A stretch of 29,379 nt of DNA from a virus. Within the stretch, counting starts at the first letter, position 1, and each line of letters starts with the position of its first letter. Made by a program: the position numbers and the translations under genes. The notes beneath the pieces were generated by a model. It searched no databases, had not been told where the DNA came from, and was given only the letters and a program-made list of their open reading frames with translations. The DNA is taken from IMG/VR virus record IMGVR_UViG_3300046804_001839, positions 1-29,379 of that record, one strand, 5' to 3'. Below are positions 19,740-29,379 of this stretch, one piece after another.

Positions 19740-20621
19740 CTATTTCTCGAGCTTCTTGAGCTTATTCTGCAACGTCTTGACCGTTTTCATCAAGTCTGCA
19801 TTCGTGGTCTGGTACGTGTCGCGGCTCTCACGCAATGCTTTGTTGTCGATCTCAAGCACTCTGACCTGCTCGCGCAAATCATTAACGGTTTCTTGGATAT
19901 CGATCTTCTCAATCTCTGATGCGTCCCACTGGCCGACTGCAATCTTGTCTCGCAACAACTCGTTCTCTGCCTTCAGGGATACAACCGTCTCGCTCAATTC
20001 TTGAATCAACTGCTGGGCTTCTGCTAGCTCATCGCTTGGCTCTTCAGTTTTTTCAGGCTTCTGCTTTGTTCGCTCCTTGTTTGCTTTCTTGATGCCAGCA
20101 GTGTTGATAGTATTTGTCTTGCCGTGTTTGTTTGTGTACTCTTTAATATCGCTTTCGTCTTTTAGCTCGCCTTTTGCTTGCAGATCTGCTTTCACGCGAG
20201 TGACCATCATCTTTGAAGCGCCCACATGACGAGCGATCTCAGCGTTGGTTTTGCTTTTCCATTTTTCGTGCTCGATGATCTTGCAAATTGCAGCGCGCTT
20301 GTCCTCAACGCTCAAAGGCAACCCGTGCTGTGCATTTGCACCCAAAGCAAACCAGATCGCATCAAGCAACGTACCAGTGTGAATGTTGCACTCGATGGAT
20401 GCTTTACCCAGGCTCTTAACCGCAAAGTACCTGTGGAAGCCGCTAGACAGCCAGTAGGTCGAGCCGTCGTGGAACACGTCGATAGGAGGGAACACATCCC
20501 CGTCCTTCATGTTCTCTGCGAACAGCGTGATGCGCTCTTGGTCAACGCTCTTGCGAACCTGCGTTCCACCTGACAAGTCAACTAGATCGACGTTCAGCTT
20601 CTTGGTTGTTGTCTTACTCAA
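19740..20621 (-). CDS. ParB-like nuclease/DNA-binding protein with coiled-coil tail
   Basis: The 293-aa protein begins at a TTG (20621) with AAGGGAG seven bases upstream. Residues ~10-95 match the ParB/sulfiredoxin-like fold: PPIDVFHDGSTYWLSSGFHR (45-64) with the GxHR box at 61-64 and an acidic or aromatic patch after it. A helix-turn-helix follows at ~125-145 (NAEIARHVGASKMMVTRVKA). After a Lys-rich linker the C-terminus (~200-293) is a coiled coil rich in Glu, Leu and Lys. No ParA partner is nearby, and phage proteins of this type act in replication or transcription rather than partition. It is the first gene of the replication operon. ParB-like fold clear, activity inferred. Confidence 0.8.
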   Translation of the reverse strand: MSKTTTKKLNVDLVDLSGGTQVRKSVDQERITLFAENMKDGDVFPPIDVFHDGSTYWLSSGFHRYFAVKSLGKASIECNIHTGTLLDAIWFALGANAQHGLPLSVEDKRAAICKIIEHEKWKSKTNAEIARHVGASKMMVTRVKADLQAKGELKDESDIKEYTNKHGKTNTINTAGIKKANKERTKQKPEKTEEPSDELAEAQQLIQELSETVVSLKAENELLRDKIAVGQWDASEIEKIDIQETVNDLREQVRVLEIDNKALRESRDTYQTTNADLMKTVKTLQNKLKKLEK

Positions 20622-20649
20622 TTCGTATCTCCCTTATCGGTTACCATAC

Positions 20650-20678
20650 ATCATATCGCGCCCAATTCATCTCTTGTA
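20650..20678 (-). promoter_or_regulatory. Candidate promoter of the leftward replication operon
   Basis: TATGAT on the minus strand (20655-20650) matches the -10 consensus in five of six bases and lies 29 nt before the TTG start of the ParB-like gene. The -35 region at 20678-20673 (TACAAG) is poor, so the promoter would need an activator or an extended element that I do not see. It is proposed because an operon this long needs its own promoter after the terminators at 21117-21150 and 20950-20955. Confidence 0.3.
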
Positions 20679-20696
20679 TCAGTGTTTTCACTACCT

Positions 20697-20940
20697 GCAA
20701 GGGGTGGGGGGAGGCCCCAGACCCGGCCCAGGCAGCACACACAGGCACTACCCCAGCCAACCATGGCGGCAGCGATTCATTCATCACGGGCCTTGCGGAT
20801 ACCACCCTTGTAACCCGTGACTACTCCAGTCCCTCGCTGACAGGCTGGAACGGCAAGTCCGGGGTGTCGAGACTACCGTGTCTTTCCTTCCGCGCCACCG
20901 ATTCAGGTGCTTGCTATCGTGCGGAGTACGACTGCGGGTA
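20697..20940. other. G+C-rich intergenic segment without a gene
   Basis: The segment is G+C rich, starts with a run of G (20701-20712) and contains an inverted repeat TCACGGG (20784-20790) / CCCGTGA (20814-20820) around a 23-nt loop. Open frames on both strands cross it, but they have no ribosome site, no domain and unlikely composition, so I do not accept them. It could be a regulatory region, part of a replication origin, or the remains of a host sequence. I see no tRNA and no AT-rich unwinding element. Confidence 0.4.
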
Positions 20941-20944
20941 GTGG

Positions 20945-21070
20945 AAAACAAAAAAGCCGTTAAGTCTGACCCCGGTGGAATGACGCAGATGTTTTTGGCA
21001 TCTACGCAACCCCTGGCGGGGTCGGGATCAGGCTTAACGGCTCTTTGCTGGACATTCCACTGCCAACAAT
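20945..21070 (-). ncRNA. Candidate phage small RNA with long hairpin and intrinsic terminator
   Basis: Read leftward, a transcript starting near 21070 would contain AGCCGTTAAG (21042-21033), pairing perfectly with CTTAACGGCT (20964-20955). Next to these are CCTGA and CCCCG blocks that pair with TCAG and CGGGG on the other arm. An inner hairpin AGATG/CATCT sits around positions 20988-21004. The outer stem is directly followed by six U (20955-20950) and UGUUUU, as in an intrinsic terminator. An outer GTGGAA/TTCCAC pair (21060-21055 and 20946-20941) extends the symmetry. A promoter lies just upstream (21077-21107). No open frame with a ribosome site is present. I therefore read this as an independent structured RNA of ~125 nt. 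Confidence 0.5.
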
Positions 21071-21076
21071 GGGCGT

Positions 21077-21107
21077 ATTGTAACCACACAATCGCATGGC
21101 GTGTCAA
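21077..21107 (-). promoter_or_regulatory. Near-consensus promoter for the candidate small RNA
   Basis: On the minus strand a perfect TTGACA (21107-21102) is followed after 19 nt by TACAAT (21082-21077), five of six consensus. The spacer is two bases longer than ideal. It lies just after the terminator of the recombination operon, so it would restart transcription there, and just before the hairpin element. It could also feed the ParB operon if the downstream terminator is leaky or controlled. Confidence 0.55.
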
Positions 21108-21116
21108 TACCCCTAC

Positions 21117-21150
21117 AAAAAAAATCCCCCCAGGGGAGGGCCTGGGGGGA
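21117..21150 (-). terminator. Rho-independent terminator of the recombination operon
   Basis: On the minus strand a perfect 10-bp G+C-rich stem (21150-21141 with 21134-21125, loop of six) is followed by eight consecutive U (A-run at 21117-21124). It lies 57 nt after the stop of the HNH-like gene. This is a textbook intrinsic terminator for leftward transcription, and it has no U-run for the rightward direction. Confidence 0.92.
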
Positions 21151-21206
21151 ACTCGGAGGAGAGAGATGTCGCAACCATTGCTAGGAGATTGGACAGTCGG
21201 ACTGTA

Positions 21207-25035: not shown

Positions 25036-25063
25036 GGGGAGCCGCGCGCTCCCCTTCTTTTTT
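25036..25063 (+). terminator. Rho-independent terminator after rusA
   Basis: GGGGAGC (25036-25042) and GCTCCCC (25048-25054) form a 7-bp stem with loop CGCGC, followed by a T-rich tract TTCTTTTTT (25055-25063). It stops rightward transcription 25 nt after rusA. The T tract runs into the stop codon of the convergent giant gene (25064-25062), so the two convergent transcripts end on top of each other. It lacks a U-run in the other direction. Confidence 0.9.
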
Positions 25064-28000
25064 AGAAGCCAGCCTCTTTGCGCATTTCGTAGATATCGTC
25101 AAGGACTTCAATCTTCTCTTTCTTGAGATTGTCAATTTCCTTGCGGCGCTCTTCAGGGGTAAGACCGGTATCAATGCCAAGGCTCAGTGACCTGATCTCA
25201 GCGTTGACCTTTTGAAGCTGTTCAGATTTCTTGGTCACGTACTTGTGCAAGTCAAGCAGCTGCTCATTCTTGTCCGAATACTTGTCAGCCTCTTCGTCCC
25301 GGTCTTCTTTCTTAAGAGCCTGGAGCGTATTCCACTTTTTCATCACTTCTTCTTTGAGGTCGTAGAACAGCTCTTCGCGGCCACGAGGAACCTCTGGCGT
25401 TTGGAAAGTTCCAAGGAACGGCGTTTCCTTTTCGGTGGGCGACGGACGCACGCCATACGCTTCACCAATCTTATTGGATGCCCACTGCGTCATGACGCCA
25501 ATCGATCCCAGAAGGCCGCGCATCAGATGATCAGCTTCAATTGGGGAAAGCAATCGCGTTTCTTCAGTACCAGTCAGACGGCTCAAGAATTTGCCGGCCT
25601 CTGACGTAGATGCTGTGTATTGCTCAAAAGCATCACGTTCTTTGATGTTCTTGGGCGTAAGTTGTTTGCCTGTCAAAAAGCTGTGATCCAGTTTGATTTC
25701 AACAAACGGACGCACCCCTGATGGGATTGGCGGCGGCCCAAGCAGCATGTCAGTCGCAGCGTCTTTAAGCGCGGTACGCAGACGTTTGTTATCAAAGTCA
25801 TCCTTGGTGGCGCTGTTGATGTAGCGGTTATAGATAAGCTCAGGAAGGGCCTTGTAGAAGAATGCCGCGCTGGTGCTCATTGGGATTGCGTAGTCAGTGC
25901 CAGGGATGATGATGTTGCGCAATCGCGTCTTGTCATCCATCTCTTTGTACTTTTCGTCATCGCCAACCAAGAAGCAATACAAAAGTACCCATGCTGCTAA
26001 CTGGGTGCCAGTAGCGGCAAGTCTTGCAAGCACTTCTGCCCGCCTTTTTCCTTTTAGTCCTCCACCTGCCAATGCCGAAACCAGCACATCAGCTTGTTGT
26101 ACCCAAGCATTGATGAATGAAACTGTTTTAACCACAGCTTGCGATACTTTGCCGCTACCGTGCCGCAGGAAGTTGATGACGTTTTGGGCCTGATAAGCAG
26201 CCAGTGCGGCATCGCCTGTTTCTTTGAGGACTCGCTCATACGTTGCGATACGTTGAGCCACGTCTGATGCATCGCCGACATGATCCAATGCTTTAAGCAC
26301 ATAGTTATAGGTAGACCGATTCATCACCCCAAGTTCACGCTTGACTTCAAGTTCAGGCGTTCTTGAGGGAGTGTAATAGCCTCCAATACCAGACGCTTTA
26401 AGGATCTTCGCGGTCTCACTTTGGTTTGCGACTGCCTTAAGAAAGTCTTTATAGACGGCCAGCACAAACGTAGTCGGGTTCTTTACTCCAGTTACCAAGG
26501 CCGCAGTGGGCGCATCCATGATCACTTGCTTCAGTTGGAAGTCAGGCATGATCGTGATGGAGCGCCGAACAAAGTTGGCCACTAAAGCCAAAGGCTTCCA
26601 AACTGCGAGGTCTACGTTATCAAGACCAAGCAATGCCTGGGCAATCAACGGATCTTTGATCTCAATAAAGACAGACCGGCCCTGTGATTTGAACTCATAG
26701 CGGTCTTTGTCTTTGCTTGGGAATGTCATCACATTCCCGTTCGAATTTCGAGTTGCATACTCCGAAACAATTCGAGATGCAGCGTAGTGGCGAATTGACT
26801 CCATGGTGTTGCGCATAACGCTACGCGTCATGTTGTCAATGATGTTTTCAATCTCACGGTTGGTCTTGAAGACAACCAGATCACCCTTCTTGATGTCGGC
26901 GTTGATCTTGATGTTGCCTTCTGGGGTAGCCTCTATGAGATCTGGGTCAACTTTTTTCCCATTGATCTCTGCCTTCACCACAGACGACTGCTGGATGTGG
27001 AACTCTTGCTGGCCATCTTCAGCTTCAAACGTGGTGATGACCTGCGGCTTGCCTTTCTTAAATTTCTTGAGCAACGGAATGTTGGTAAAGGTACGGGTCG
27101 TCACCTGACTAGGCGCTTTGACGACCTCTTCCTCTTCCATGACTCGCTGCCATGGCACGTAGTCTTTGATCTTGGACAGCACATCGTACTGGGCCTGACT
27201 CATCAGCCCCACATCCCGGCGCACACGCAAGAGGTTCTTGTTAACAGCCGTCCAGTTATCCATGATCTCACGCAGCTCTGGATGCTTTTCTTCCATGGCA
27301 ATGAAATCATCGATCTCATCTTCGGACATGTTGATCTTGCTGCGTGCTATCTCAATAGCCTTGAGTTCTGACTCAAGTTGATCATTCAAAGCCCGCTCTT
27401 GCTTCAGTTCGGCACTTGCTCTTCTCAAACTCTTTTCAATGGTTGATTTTTGAGAATCAGGTGCTTGCTCAAACGAAGCTCGCAAGTTTTTAACTTGCTC
27501 TTGCAATTCGTCAACCCGACCGTTTGATTCTTCAAACTCAGCTTGGCGAGACAGGAATTCGTTTTCAATGCTCCGAGACCGCTTGGCTTCCAAATAGCCT
27601 TGGATGATGTTGGTTCCCAACTGGTCACCCAACTTTTCTTTCAGGGCGCTCTCAGCTTTGTATACGCCAAACATCCCCTTATCGGTTTGAACAGCCGTAT
27701 AGGTCAGATGATTCGGGTCGTACTCAAGGCCGCCCATGAAGATGACGCGAGCAGCAATGTTGCCGCTGCGCAGGGCGTTGTCCAAAGCAAGAGACGCGGT
27801 AGCAATGTCATCAGCAGTACGCACCTCGCCGGCATAGCGCTGGAAGTCAGCCACCTCAAGAGCTTTGCCAAAGAAGACCGCGTTATTGCGGATGTTCATC
27901 AAACCACGGTCAAGACCCGTAAACATCGCAGCCGCTGTTCTAACAGGGAAGTTGACCGCCTCTTTGAAGACATCTTTGCCAAACTTGATGGTGTCGACAA

Positions 28001-29379
28001 AGATTTCTTTCAAATCACGCACATTGGTTGAAAGCGGAGTGTTGGCCCGGTTGTACTTCTTGACCAGATCTTCTTCGTCTTCAATGTTCTCCAACGTAGT
28101 CCAGGGCATCTCGCTGGACTTGACCATGTCTTGGAGACTGTCGTAAGACACGCGCTCCTTTGATCCATTCATTATTTGATCAAAGGTCTTGTGGATTGCG
28201 TAGTTATTATCAAAGCCAAAGATGTTCTTCAGGCCTTCAAACAACTTGCGGATGGCTTTCTTGAACTGCTCCCAGCGCGTGCCAAGAGTTGCAGCCATAA
28301 GCGGCTCGCCATTGACAGCCCAGTATTCAGACGGGCTGATGTATTGGTACATGTCGTAGCTAGGCAAAGCAGCTATGGCAGCACGATAGGTTTTATCGCT
28401 CGGGTTATCAATGAAGTCCAGAACCTTGTTGAAGTAGTTCTGATATTTCTGATCGTCATACTTCTCAATTGCTTTAGACAGCGAGTCTGCCCAGGCCGTG
28501 ACAACAGTCTTGCGCTGGTCGGCATCCATCATCTGCTCAAGCGCATGAGTCAGTTCATGGCGGATCGTCCCTGGGCTTTCAACACCAGTCGTGCCTTTAT
28601 ACAAGGCAATGATGCGTTTGATCGCGTCAAATGTTCCAGCAACTCCCTCTTGCTTGCCTTCCTTCACAGAAAGCAATAAGCCATTGAGCAAGCTTGGTTG
28701 TTTGGCGTAAGCAGCTTGAATGACGGCCAGCACGTCGGCACTTATGTTGCCGCTGTCGTACTCCTTCAAAGCTCGGGCCAAGAACGCTCCAGGACTATCC
28801 TTGCGCTCACGCGACATATCAATTGCCGCTTTGAGAGTCTTTGCCTCTCTATCTAAAACTGTCAGCTTGCGTTGCAACGTCAAATCGGCTTTGCCCTCTT
28901 TGACTTGTTGCATCAAGCGCTCTTTGCCCTGACGAAGCTTGGCGTACTCTCTGATAACTTCCCGTCTGGTCTCTTTGTCTTTACGAGCCAAAGCGAGCGC
29001 GGTGTATGGCCGAGTTGTATCTATGTTGTAGAGAAAGTTTGACTTATCCCCGTAGGTCACTCCACGAGCCAAAATCATGTTACCGATCTGTAGTACCTCA
29101 TCGGCCTTGACTACGGGGACGGTAGTGCGTCGGTCAAAGAAATATGCGTGTCGTGTTGGATCAATACCAACTTGAATCCACGCAGGATTGTTGAATACGT
29201 CTTTGGCTTTGGAATAGATCTGCTCGGCTGTCATGGGGACATATGTGCCCTCCATGGTTTGCAGCACATCTTTAGATGCCCCGGACGCAATTTTTAACGC
29301 TTCTTTTTGATTTCCAATAGCAAACGAGACGTTTGTAATGCTGGCTGCATTACTGTAACCAAGACTCTTTCCAACCTTA
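25062..29379 (-). CDS. Giant polyvalent virion protein with HELTH metalloprotease-like motif (partial, N-terminus missing)
   Basis: The frame has no stop up to the right edge, so the gene enters from outside; a GTG at 29267 is only an internal codon. At least 1,438 residues are visible. Near the start of the visible part is GTIRHELTHALEQMM, with HELTH encoded at 28545-28559, the zinc-binding HExxH of metallopeptidases. Long charged helices and coiled coil follow (about 570-680 when counted from 29267). The last third has a LPD38-like part: hydrophobic LAAWVLLYCFLVG and NVINFLRHGSGK... segments with SAAFFYKALPELIYNRYINS, as in large polyvalent proteins carried into the cell. Such proteins are packed in the virion and ejected with DNA. 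It ends at the rusA terminator. Confidence 0.8.
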   Translation of the reverse strand, partial: KVGKSLGYSNAASITNVSFAIGNQKEALKIASGASKDVLQTMEGTYVPMTAEQIYSKAKDVFNNPAWIQVGIDPTRHAYFFDRRTTVPVVKADEVLQIGNMILARGVTYGDKSNFLYNIDTTRPYTALALARKDKETRREVIREYAKLRQGKERLMQQVKEGKADLTLQRKLTVLDREAKTLKAAIDMSRERKDSPGAFLARALKEYDSGNISADVLAVIQAAYAKQPSLLNGLLLSVKEGKQEGVAGTFDAIKRIIALYKGTTGVESPGTIRHELTHALEQMMDADQRKTVVTAWADSLSKAIEKYDDQKYQNYFNKVLDFIDNPSDKTYRAAIAALPSYDMYQYISPSEYWAVNGEPLMAATLGTRWEQFKKAIRKLFEGLKNIFGFDNNYAIHKTFDQIMNGSKERVSYDSLQDMVKSSEMPWTTLENIEDEEDLVKKYNRANTPLSTNVRDLKEIFVDTIKFGKDVFKEAVNFPVRTAAAMFTGLDRGLMNIRNNAVFFGKALEVADFQRYAGEVRTADDIATASLALDNALRSGNIAARVIFMGGLEYDPNHLTYTAVQTDKGMFGVYKAESALKEKLGDQLGTNIIQGYLEAKRSRSIENEFLSRQAEFEESNGRVDELQEQVKNLRASFEQAPDSQKSTIEKSLRRASAELKQERALNDQLESELKAIEIARSKINMSEDEIDDFIAMEEKHPELREIMDNWTAVNKNLLRVRRDVGLMSQAQYDVLSKIKDYVPWQRVMEEEEVVKAPSQVTTRTFTNIPLLKKFKKGKPQVITTFEAEDGQQEFHIQQSSVVKAEINGKKVDPDLIEATPEGNIKINADIKKGDLVVFKTNREIENIIDNMTRSVMRNTMESIRHYAASRIVSEYATRNSNGNVMTFPSKDKDRYEFKSQGRSVFIEIKDPLIAQALLGLDNVDLAVWKPLALVANFVRRSITIMPDFQLKQVIMDAPTAALVTGVKNPTTFVLAVYKDFLKAVANQSETAKILKASGIGGYYTPSRTPELEVKRELGVMNRSTYNYVLKALDHVGDASDVAQRIATYERVLKETGDAALAAYQAQNVINFLRHGSGKVSQAVVKTVSFINAWVQQADVLVSALAGGGLKGKRRAEVLARLAATGTQLAAWVLLYCFLVGDDEKYKEMDDKTRLRNIIIPGTDYAIPMSTSAAFFYKALPELIYNRYINSATKDDFDNKRLRTALKDAATDMLLGPPPIPSGVRPFVEIKLDHSFLTGKQLTPKNIKERDAFEQYTASTSEAGKFLSRLTGTEETRLLSPIEADHLMRGLLGSIGVMTQWASNKIGEAYGVRPSPTEKETPFLGTFQTPEVPRGREELFYDLKEEVMKKWNTLQALKKEDRDEEADKYSDKNEQLLDLHKYVTKKSEQLQKVNAEIRSLSLGIDTGLTPEERRKEIDNLKKEKIEVLDDIYEMRKEAGF

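Follow-up and report, generated by a model that had tools for sequence, protein, structure and literature searches.

The window analyzed here, a stretch of 29,379 nucleotides corresponding to an IMG/VR virus record (IMGVR_UViG_3300046804_001839), contains an element that we call RNA A, flanked by an HNH gene on one side and, on the other, by a ParB-like gene that is followed by a helicase. On the minus strand, positions 21107–20950 read as a promoter, then a folded RNA roughly 120 nt long, then a U-run. The promoter is composed of a −35 element, TTGACA (21102–21107), and a −10 element, TACAAT (21077–21082), separated by a 19-nt spacer exactly as described in the initial annotation, which was made from these letters alone; judged against the consensus only, it matches at 11 of 12 positions. 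Transcription would start near 21070, such that the structured, self-terminating RNA delimited by its fold, homologues, and pair counts probably spans 20950–21070 and ends in six T (20950–20955). Upstream, a second intrinsic terminator (21117–21150) is formed by a 10-bp stem with 8 GC pairs (TTTTTTTT, 21150–21125) followed by a T-run, and this predicted terminator would insulate the RNA A gene from the upstream HNH gene. Elsewhere in the window, a 1401-aa protein with a C-terminal LPD38 domain, of the large polyvalent protein type, is encoded on the minus strand at 25062–29267.

To place RNA A among other phages, we collected relatives from IMG/VR. An exact pattern taken from the stem matched 32 viral stretches, and a generic core pattern, unconstrained in the lower stem and in most of the pseudoknot described below, identified relatives in at least 119 phage stretches; the U-run formed part of how these were collected, and opposite-strand matches were palindromic echoes of the same places. 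A covariance model was built from the 28 first relatives, and all newly fetched relatives that were searched matched it. Five phage records searched whole each contained one RNA A place. In INPHARED, blastn of the region returned nothing at 1e-5, and a relaxed search recovered one real relative, in the annotated phage MW202545.1 (Manatee Spring), right behind six tRNA genes. A plasmid search yielded no convincing match, and model R1 found none in 399 Burkholderiales genomes, a weak negative given that these cover part of the order, were searched with strict filters, and include no known-positive genome. Ten genome-collection matches to CCGGGGTCAGNCTTANCGGC were discarded as chance, since none has the RNA A hairpin and U-run. 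ARAGORN found no tRNA or tmRNA.

The promoter recurs across these relatives. Among 89 distinct relatives, a best −35/−10 score of at least 10 was found upstream of 69%, versus 0.3% of shuffles, and the −10 element was mostly located 12–17 nt ahead of the first conserved helix (the pseudoknot strand). Promoters that combine a 19-nt spacer with TGTG ahead of the −10 element, a type overlooked by a scan for spacers of 16–18 nt, were seen in the window itself (21107–21077, minus strand) and in L021, L030, L098, L117, L145, and L156. In four scanned loci, RNA A comes immediately after phage tRNA genes encoded on its own strand (the tRNA genes at L098, 6341–6916; L030, 1900–2170; L108, 8315–8469; L139, 3266–3340), and even there RNA A keeps its own promoter (L098 and L030). 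Consensus match and family-wide enrichment thus both point to a promoter belonging to RNA A itself, as in an independent small RNA gene.

We then examined the fold. The initial annotation had proposed folding 20941–21075, and this segment, folded alone, reached −65.9 kcal/mol versus −36.75 ± 3.46 for shuffles (z = −8.4), with 0 of 200 shuffles as good. At the 5′ end is a hairpin, P0 (TTGTTGG…CCAGCAA, 21045–21069), whose stem varies among relatives and whose loop motif, GTGGAA (21055–21060), is constant. Behind it comes a long hairpin in which P1, interrupted by a 1 × 1 mismatch position, pairs a 5′ arm (GCCGTTAAG-C-CTGATCCCG, 21023–21041) with a 3′ arm (CGGGGTCAG-A-CTTAACGGC, 20956–20974) and encloses both P2 (ACCCC-GCCA-GGGGT, 21009–21022) and P3 (20983–21007), the last variable in length and sequence. 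The loop of P0 would pair with the junction inside this long hairpin, where TTCCAC is found at 20975–20980. The base of P1 doubles as the terminator stem: the outer stem that had originally been described (21042/21041–21033 with 20964–20956/20955) is indeed followed at once by six U, encoded by the six T at 20955–20950, and the stem covaries among relatives, the anatomy of an intrinsic terminator.

Compensatory base changes in homologues, which the initial annotation had named as a test, are abundant. In an alignment of 65 distinct RNAs (A3), standard pairs occupy 99.4% of pair cells, and 206 cells show changes on both sides, versus 53.7 ± 6.4 in shuffled and 6 to 31 in slid controls. Both-side changes affect 10 of the 18 pairs of P1 and 4 of the 7 pairs between the P0 loop and the junction (99.8% paired); P2 and upper P1 were fixed by the search pattern, and their invariance carries no evidential weight. 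In 89 of 91 distinct relatives, the loop of the 5′ hairpin contains the exact complement of the six letters that precede CGGGGTC within the long hairpin; by these letters the 91 relatives are divided into TTCCAC (67), TCTCAC (14), TGCCAC (8), and TTCTAC (2) types, and the complement of a different type is nearly absent (0/77, 0/83, 0/24, and 1/89). This pairing is a pseudoknot, as it joins a strand 5′ of the long hairpin to one within it. As the rows of A3 were anchored on a hexamer found by complementarity, the weight of the pseudoknot comes from the cross-type control and from the divergent class described below, rather than from the A3 counts alone. The predicted fold, including the loop-to-junction pseudoknot, is in our view well established from sequence comparison.

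The pseudoknot also revises two elements of the initial annotation, which had extended the symmetry of the hairpin to about 120 bp by pairing GTGGAA with an outer TTCCAC (20946–20941) and had proposed a simple branched form. The conserved, covarying partner of GTGGAA is instead the inner TTCCAC at 20980–20975, and the fold contains a pseudoknot. A copy of TTCCAC behind the U-run is enriched among relatives (19 of 89, versus 2.7 expected); it matches the pseudoknot type poorly, and the outer symmetry was set aside.

Searching with a conserved segment of the neighboring RNA B1, along with the ParB search (L041), led to loci in which a different terminated RNA occupies the place of RNA A, and nine of these form a second, divergent class. 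They share the architecture of RNA A—a hairpin at the 5′ end, a long hairpin that serves as terminator, an inner hairpin, and a junction, with P3 missing—in new sequences, and all nine contain an exact pseudoknot of 7–9 nt, in eight different sequences. Across the two classes, then, the predicted shape of RNA A is conserved and its sequence is replaced. We also observed two more kinds of apparently terminated structured RNA in the same position upstream of B1, both unlike RNA A in sequence: class C (L193, L200, L206, L207, L210, L214, and L226) and class D (L194, L203, L220, and L227).

Several properties of the family bear on what RNA A might produce. The lengths between fixed points are spread across all three mod 3 classes (40/30/21), implying that no reading frame runs through RNA A; a coding explanation was rejected on this basis, and the conserved frame that the initial annotation had listed as evidence against its own proposal is absent. 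A conserved single-stranded seed was likewise lacking in A3, where unpaired parts differ in both sequence and length, the 5′ end lies within P0, the P0 loop is engaged in the pseudoknot, and P3 and its loop vary. The suggestion that the RNA pairs with host mRNAs is therefore not favored, given that the fold leaves no such stretch free. Complementarity of the 5′ arm of P1 to upstream, middle, and downstream segments was about that of shuffles, and an attenuator was rejected for want of a detectable, mutually exclusive antiterminator pairing. Other candidates considered were an integron attC-like palindrome, rejected by eye on the inverted orientation of the core sites; a CsrA/RsmA decoy presenting GGA in the loop, dismissed since GGA is missing from the GUGAGA and GUAGAA types; and an HDV-like double pseudoknot, in which the order of helices differs.

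The genes around RNA A are diverse. The first downstream open reading frames of 76 loci fall into 50 protein clusters, and relatives adjoin terminase/glycosyltransferase/portal genes, primases, thymidylate synthase, and RuvC-like or RusA-like genes (names assigned from reading representative proteins). This diversity indicates that RNA A is an independent gene and not part of a ParB operon, and it speaks against the earlier suggestion that the RNA controls the ParB/helicase/primase operon. The core proposal of the initial annotation, an independent small RNA gene, appears by contrast to hold, supported by the promoter and terminator, by covariation, and by the predicted upstream insulation at 21150–21125. 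It had also placed this gene in the only long gene-free stretch of the window; the segment just downstream (20936–20755) is not empty and holds another conserved structured RNA.

This second RNA, B1 (20755–20936, minus strand; outer limits uncertain), was recognized in a 46-sequence alignment in which 20 of 29 predicted pairs show changes on both sides. Its structure is visible in the alignment only, the single-sequence fold of the region having a z of −0.5. By eye, B1 also shows an apparent long-range pairing of the AGCGA/UCGCU type, with UGCGA/UCGCA in other loci. In nearly all loci a recognized or structured-looking RNA (hereafter, B) is located directly behind the U-run of RNA A, and in most it starts only 20–30 nt past the U-run, leaving no space for a promoter. 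In two loci the B position is occupied by Betaproteobacteria-1 RNA (RF02932), which matches the Rfam model on the same strand as RNA A with 100 bits in L098 (7091–7208) and 98 bits in L019 (6404–6521, minus strand); in both, the model appears to span just the first 120 nt of a longer conserved RNA. RF02932 is also present in Burkholderiales genomes without an upstream RNA A. In many loci recovered by an independent search with the B1 core, B1 is preceded by a promoter and by another structured RNA with a terminator.

Three loci from one phage group with a common upstream flank (L012, L020, and L023) were particularly informative. They carry an identical RNA A followed by B2, B3 (assigned by motif to the RF02932 type), and a variant of B1, respectively, and their downstream parts are only 45–49% alike. 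That an identical RNA A precedes three unrelated B types at one site indicates that both slots behave as exchangeable cassettes and that RNA A is independent of the kind of B behind it. Other observations add to the variety of the second slot: a recurring B2 module (ATGCGGTACGTCGGTGGTGGCAT...CCCCGTTACACGAGCGAGCCAGAGCGGGG) sits behind RNA A in L002, L007, L018, L084, L103, and others; further RNA-like B types are found in L028/L104/L107, L108/L110, L155/L159, and L181/L186; and extra hairpin-like modules occur between the U-run of RNA A and the start of B in L021, L030, L145, and L156.

On balance, we favor, with some reservation, the interpretation of RNA A as an autonomous phage RNA, ending at its own terminator, that acts in trans through its shape, probably on a protein, within a modular non-coding RNA locus. 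The promoter and terminator anatomy and the modularity of the locus are the firm, sequence-level part of this proposal; transcription as drawn, action in trans, and a protein target are its more conjectural part. The RNA A gene would be transcribed from its own sigma-70-type promoter into a compact fold closed by its own intrinsic terminator, and the selected product would be this shape rather than an exposed antisense seed. RNA A would most likely bind a protein in trans, either a host factor or a defense protein, and would fill the first slot of a locus whose second slot receives interchangeable structured RNAs, B1 in this phage. Action in trans and a protein target are suggested by the lack of a conserved free seed, the lack of an antiterminator pairing, and the independence of RNA A from the identity of B; among relatives, no protein partner or constantly linked gene was found that would name the target. 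The swapping of cassettes in two slots resembles that of anti-defense genes, and we raise tentatively the possibility that these RNAs are counter-defense or host-takeover factors.

The main rival is that RNA A is instead a cis-acting leader, its terminator metering or (like HK022 put RNA) permitting readthrough into B and possibly into the genes beyond, a reading that we consider improbable though deserving of serious attention. The near-constant position of B directly behind RNA A speaks for it, as do the missing space for a promoter of B's own, which makes some readthrough of the RNA A terminator likely and a cis role then possible, and the promoter and other terminated structured RNA that precede B1 in many loci of the B1-core search. 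Against a leader stand the undetectable antiterminator pairing for the 5′ arm of P1, the identical RNA A ahead of unrelated B types, the occurrence of one B type, Betaproteobacteria-1, in Burkholderiales genomes with no RNA A upstream, and a U-run behind RNA A in every relative used, though the U-run was part of the collection criterion. A conventional antisense small RNA pairing with phage or host mRNAs would share the promoter, hairpin, and free U-run of Hfq-type small RNAs; we judge it unlikely, as P0, the pseudoknot, and the variable P3 leave no conserved single-stranded stretch, and selection acts on pairing, with the sequence wholly replaced in the divergent class.

Two further explanations dispense with a functional RNA. 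A DNA-level element, such as a site of replication or recombination that folds as a single strand and whose activity is reflected in the exchange at the A/B border, would account for cassettes being swapped right behind RNA A and for the replication genes often nearby, but the conserved placement of the promoter, the one fixed orientation, and the Rfam RNA in the second slot on the same strand as RNA A make this very improbable. Least plausible of all, RNA A could be nothing but a strong palindromic terminator that yields no noteworthy RNA. In favor, P1 and the U-run do form a textbook intrinsic terminator, and another (21150–21117) lies ahead of it, where it would end the HNH transcript; a terminator, however, needs neither a covarying pseudoknot between the P0 loop and the junction, nor a second hairpin, nor a promoter at a fixed distance.

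A stand-alone RNA A can be compared with several known phage and bacterial RNAs. P4 CI RNA, to which the initial annotation had likened the element, is a small, processed stem-loop RNA near phage replication genes that brings about termination by pairing with its own leader; RNA A has its own promoter, and the parallel is sound for anatomy and extends no further. HK022 put RNA is a promoter-proximal folded phage RNA that acts through its shape, suppressing termination through a cis effect on polymerase, and it is not known to end in a terminator, whereas RNA A does. RydC combines a pseudoknot and an intrinsic terminator with a free seed for mRNA pairing; RNA A differs in having no conserved free seed and no Rfam match. 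The Rfam search that had been proposed as a check recovered no family for RNA A: at the gathering cut-off, release 15 gave no match in the window, permissive searches of 20900–21200 and 20600–20960 returned only far sub-threshold matches, and neither RNA A nor the B1 of the window matches the RF02932 model. Similarly, we found no description of RNA A, B1, the terminator-hairpin pseudoknot, or the two-slot locus in Rfam or the open-access literature, although an earlier description in a subscription paper is possible.

Phage-borne structured RNAs as such are a known kind, exemplified by ROOL, GOLLD, and Betaproteobacteria-1, within which the RNA A family and B1 appear undescribed in the sources searched. 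RNA A adds a covariation-supported family, common among environmental phages but not represented in Rfam, in which two sequence classes share a single architecture; B1 adds a second family adjoining it. ROOL and GOLLD are phage-borne structured RNAs of unknown function that often occur near tRNA islands (PMC12286853). RNA A resembles them in lying behind tRNA genes in four scanned loci, but they are cages of 600–800 nt or more, whereas RNA A is about 120 nt long, carries its own intrinsic terminator within the fold, and has no Rfam match. Betaproteobacteria-1 RNA is a structured non-coding RNA found in the second slot of the RNA A locus in relatives, though it is a B-slot RNA that occurs without RNA A in Burkholderiales genomes. 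If our interpretation is right, many environmental phages carry a two-slot non-coding RNA locus, combining a self-terminating pseudoknotted RNA with unrelated structured RNAs that are swapped between close relatives. The exchange of cassettes at one fixed position opens function to testing, and the orphan family Betaproteobacteria-1 gains a context in phages, as one of the exchangeable modules of such a locus.
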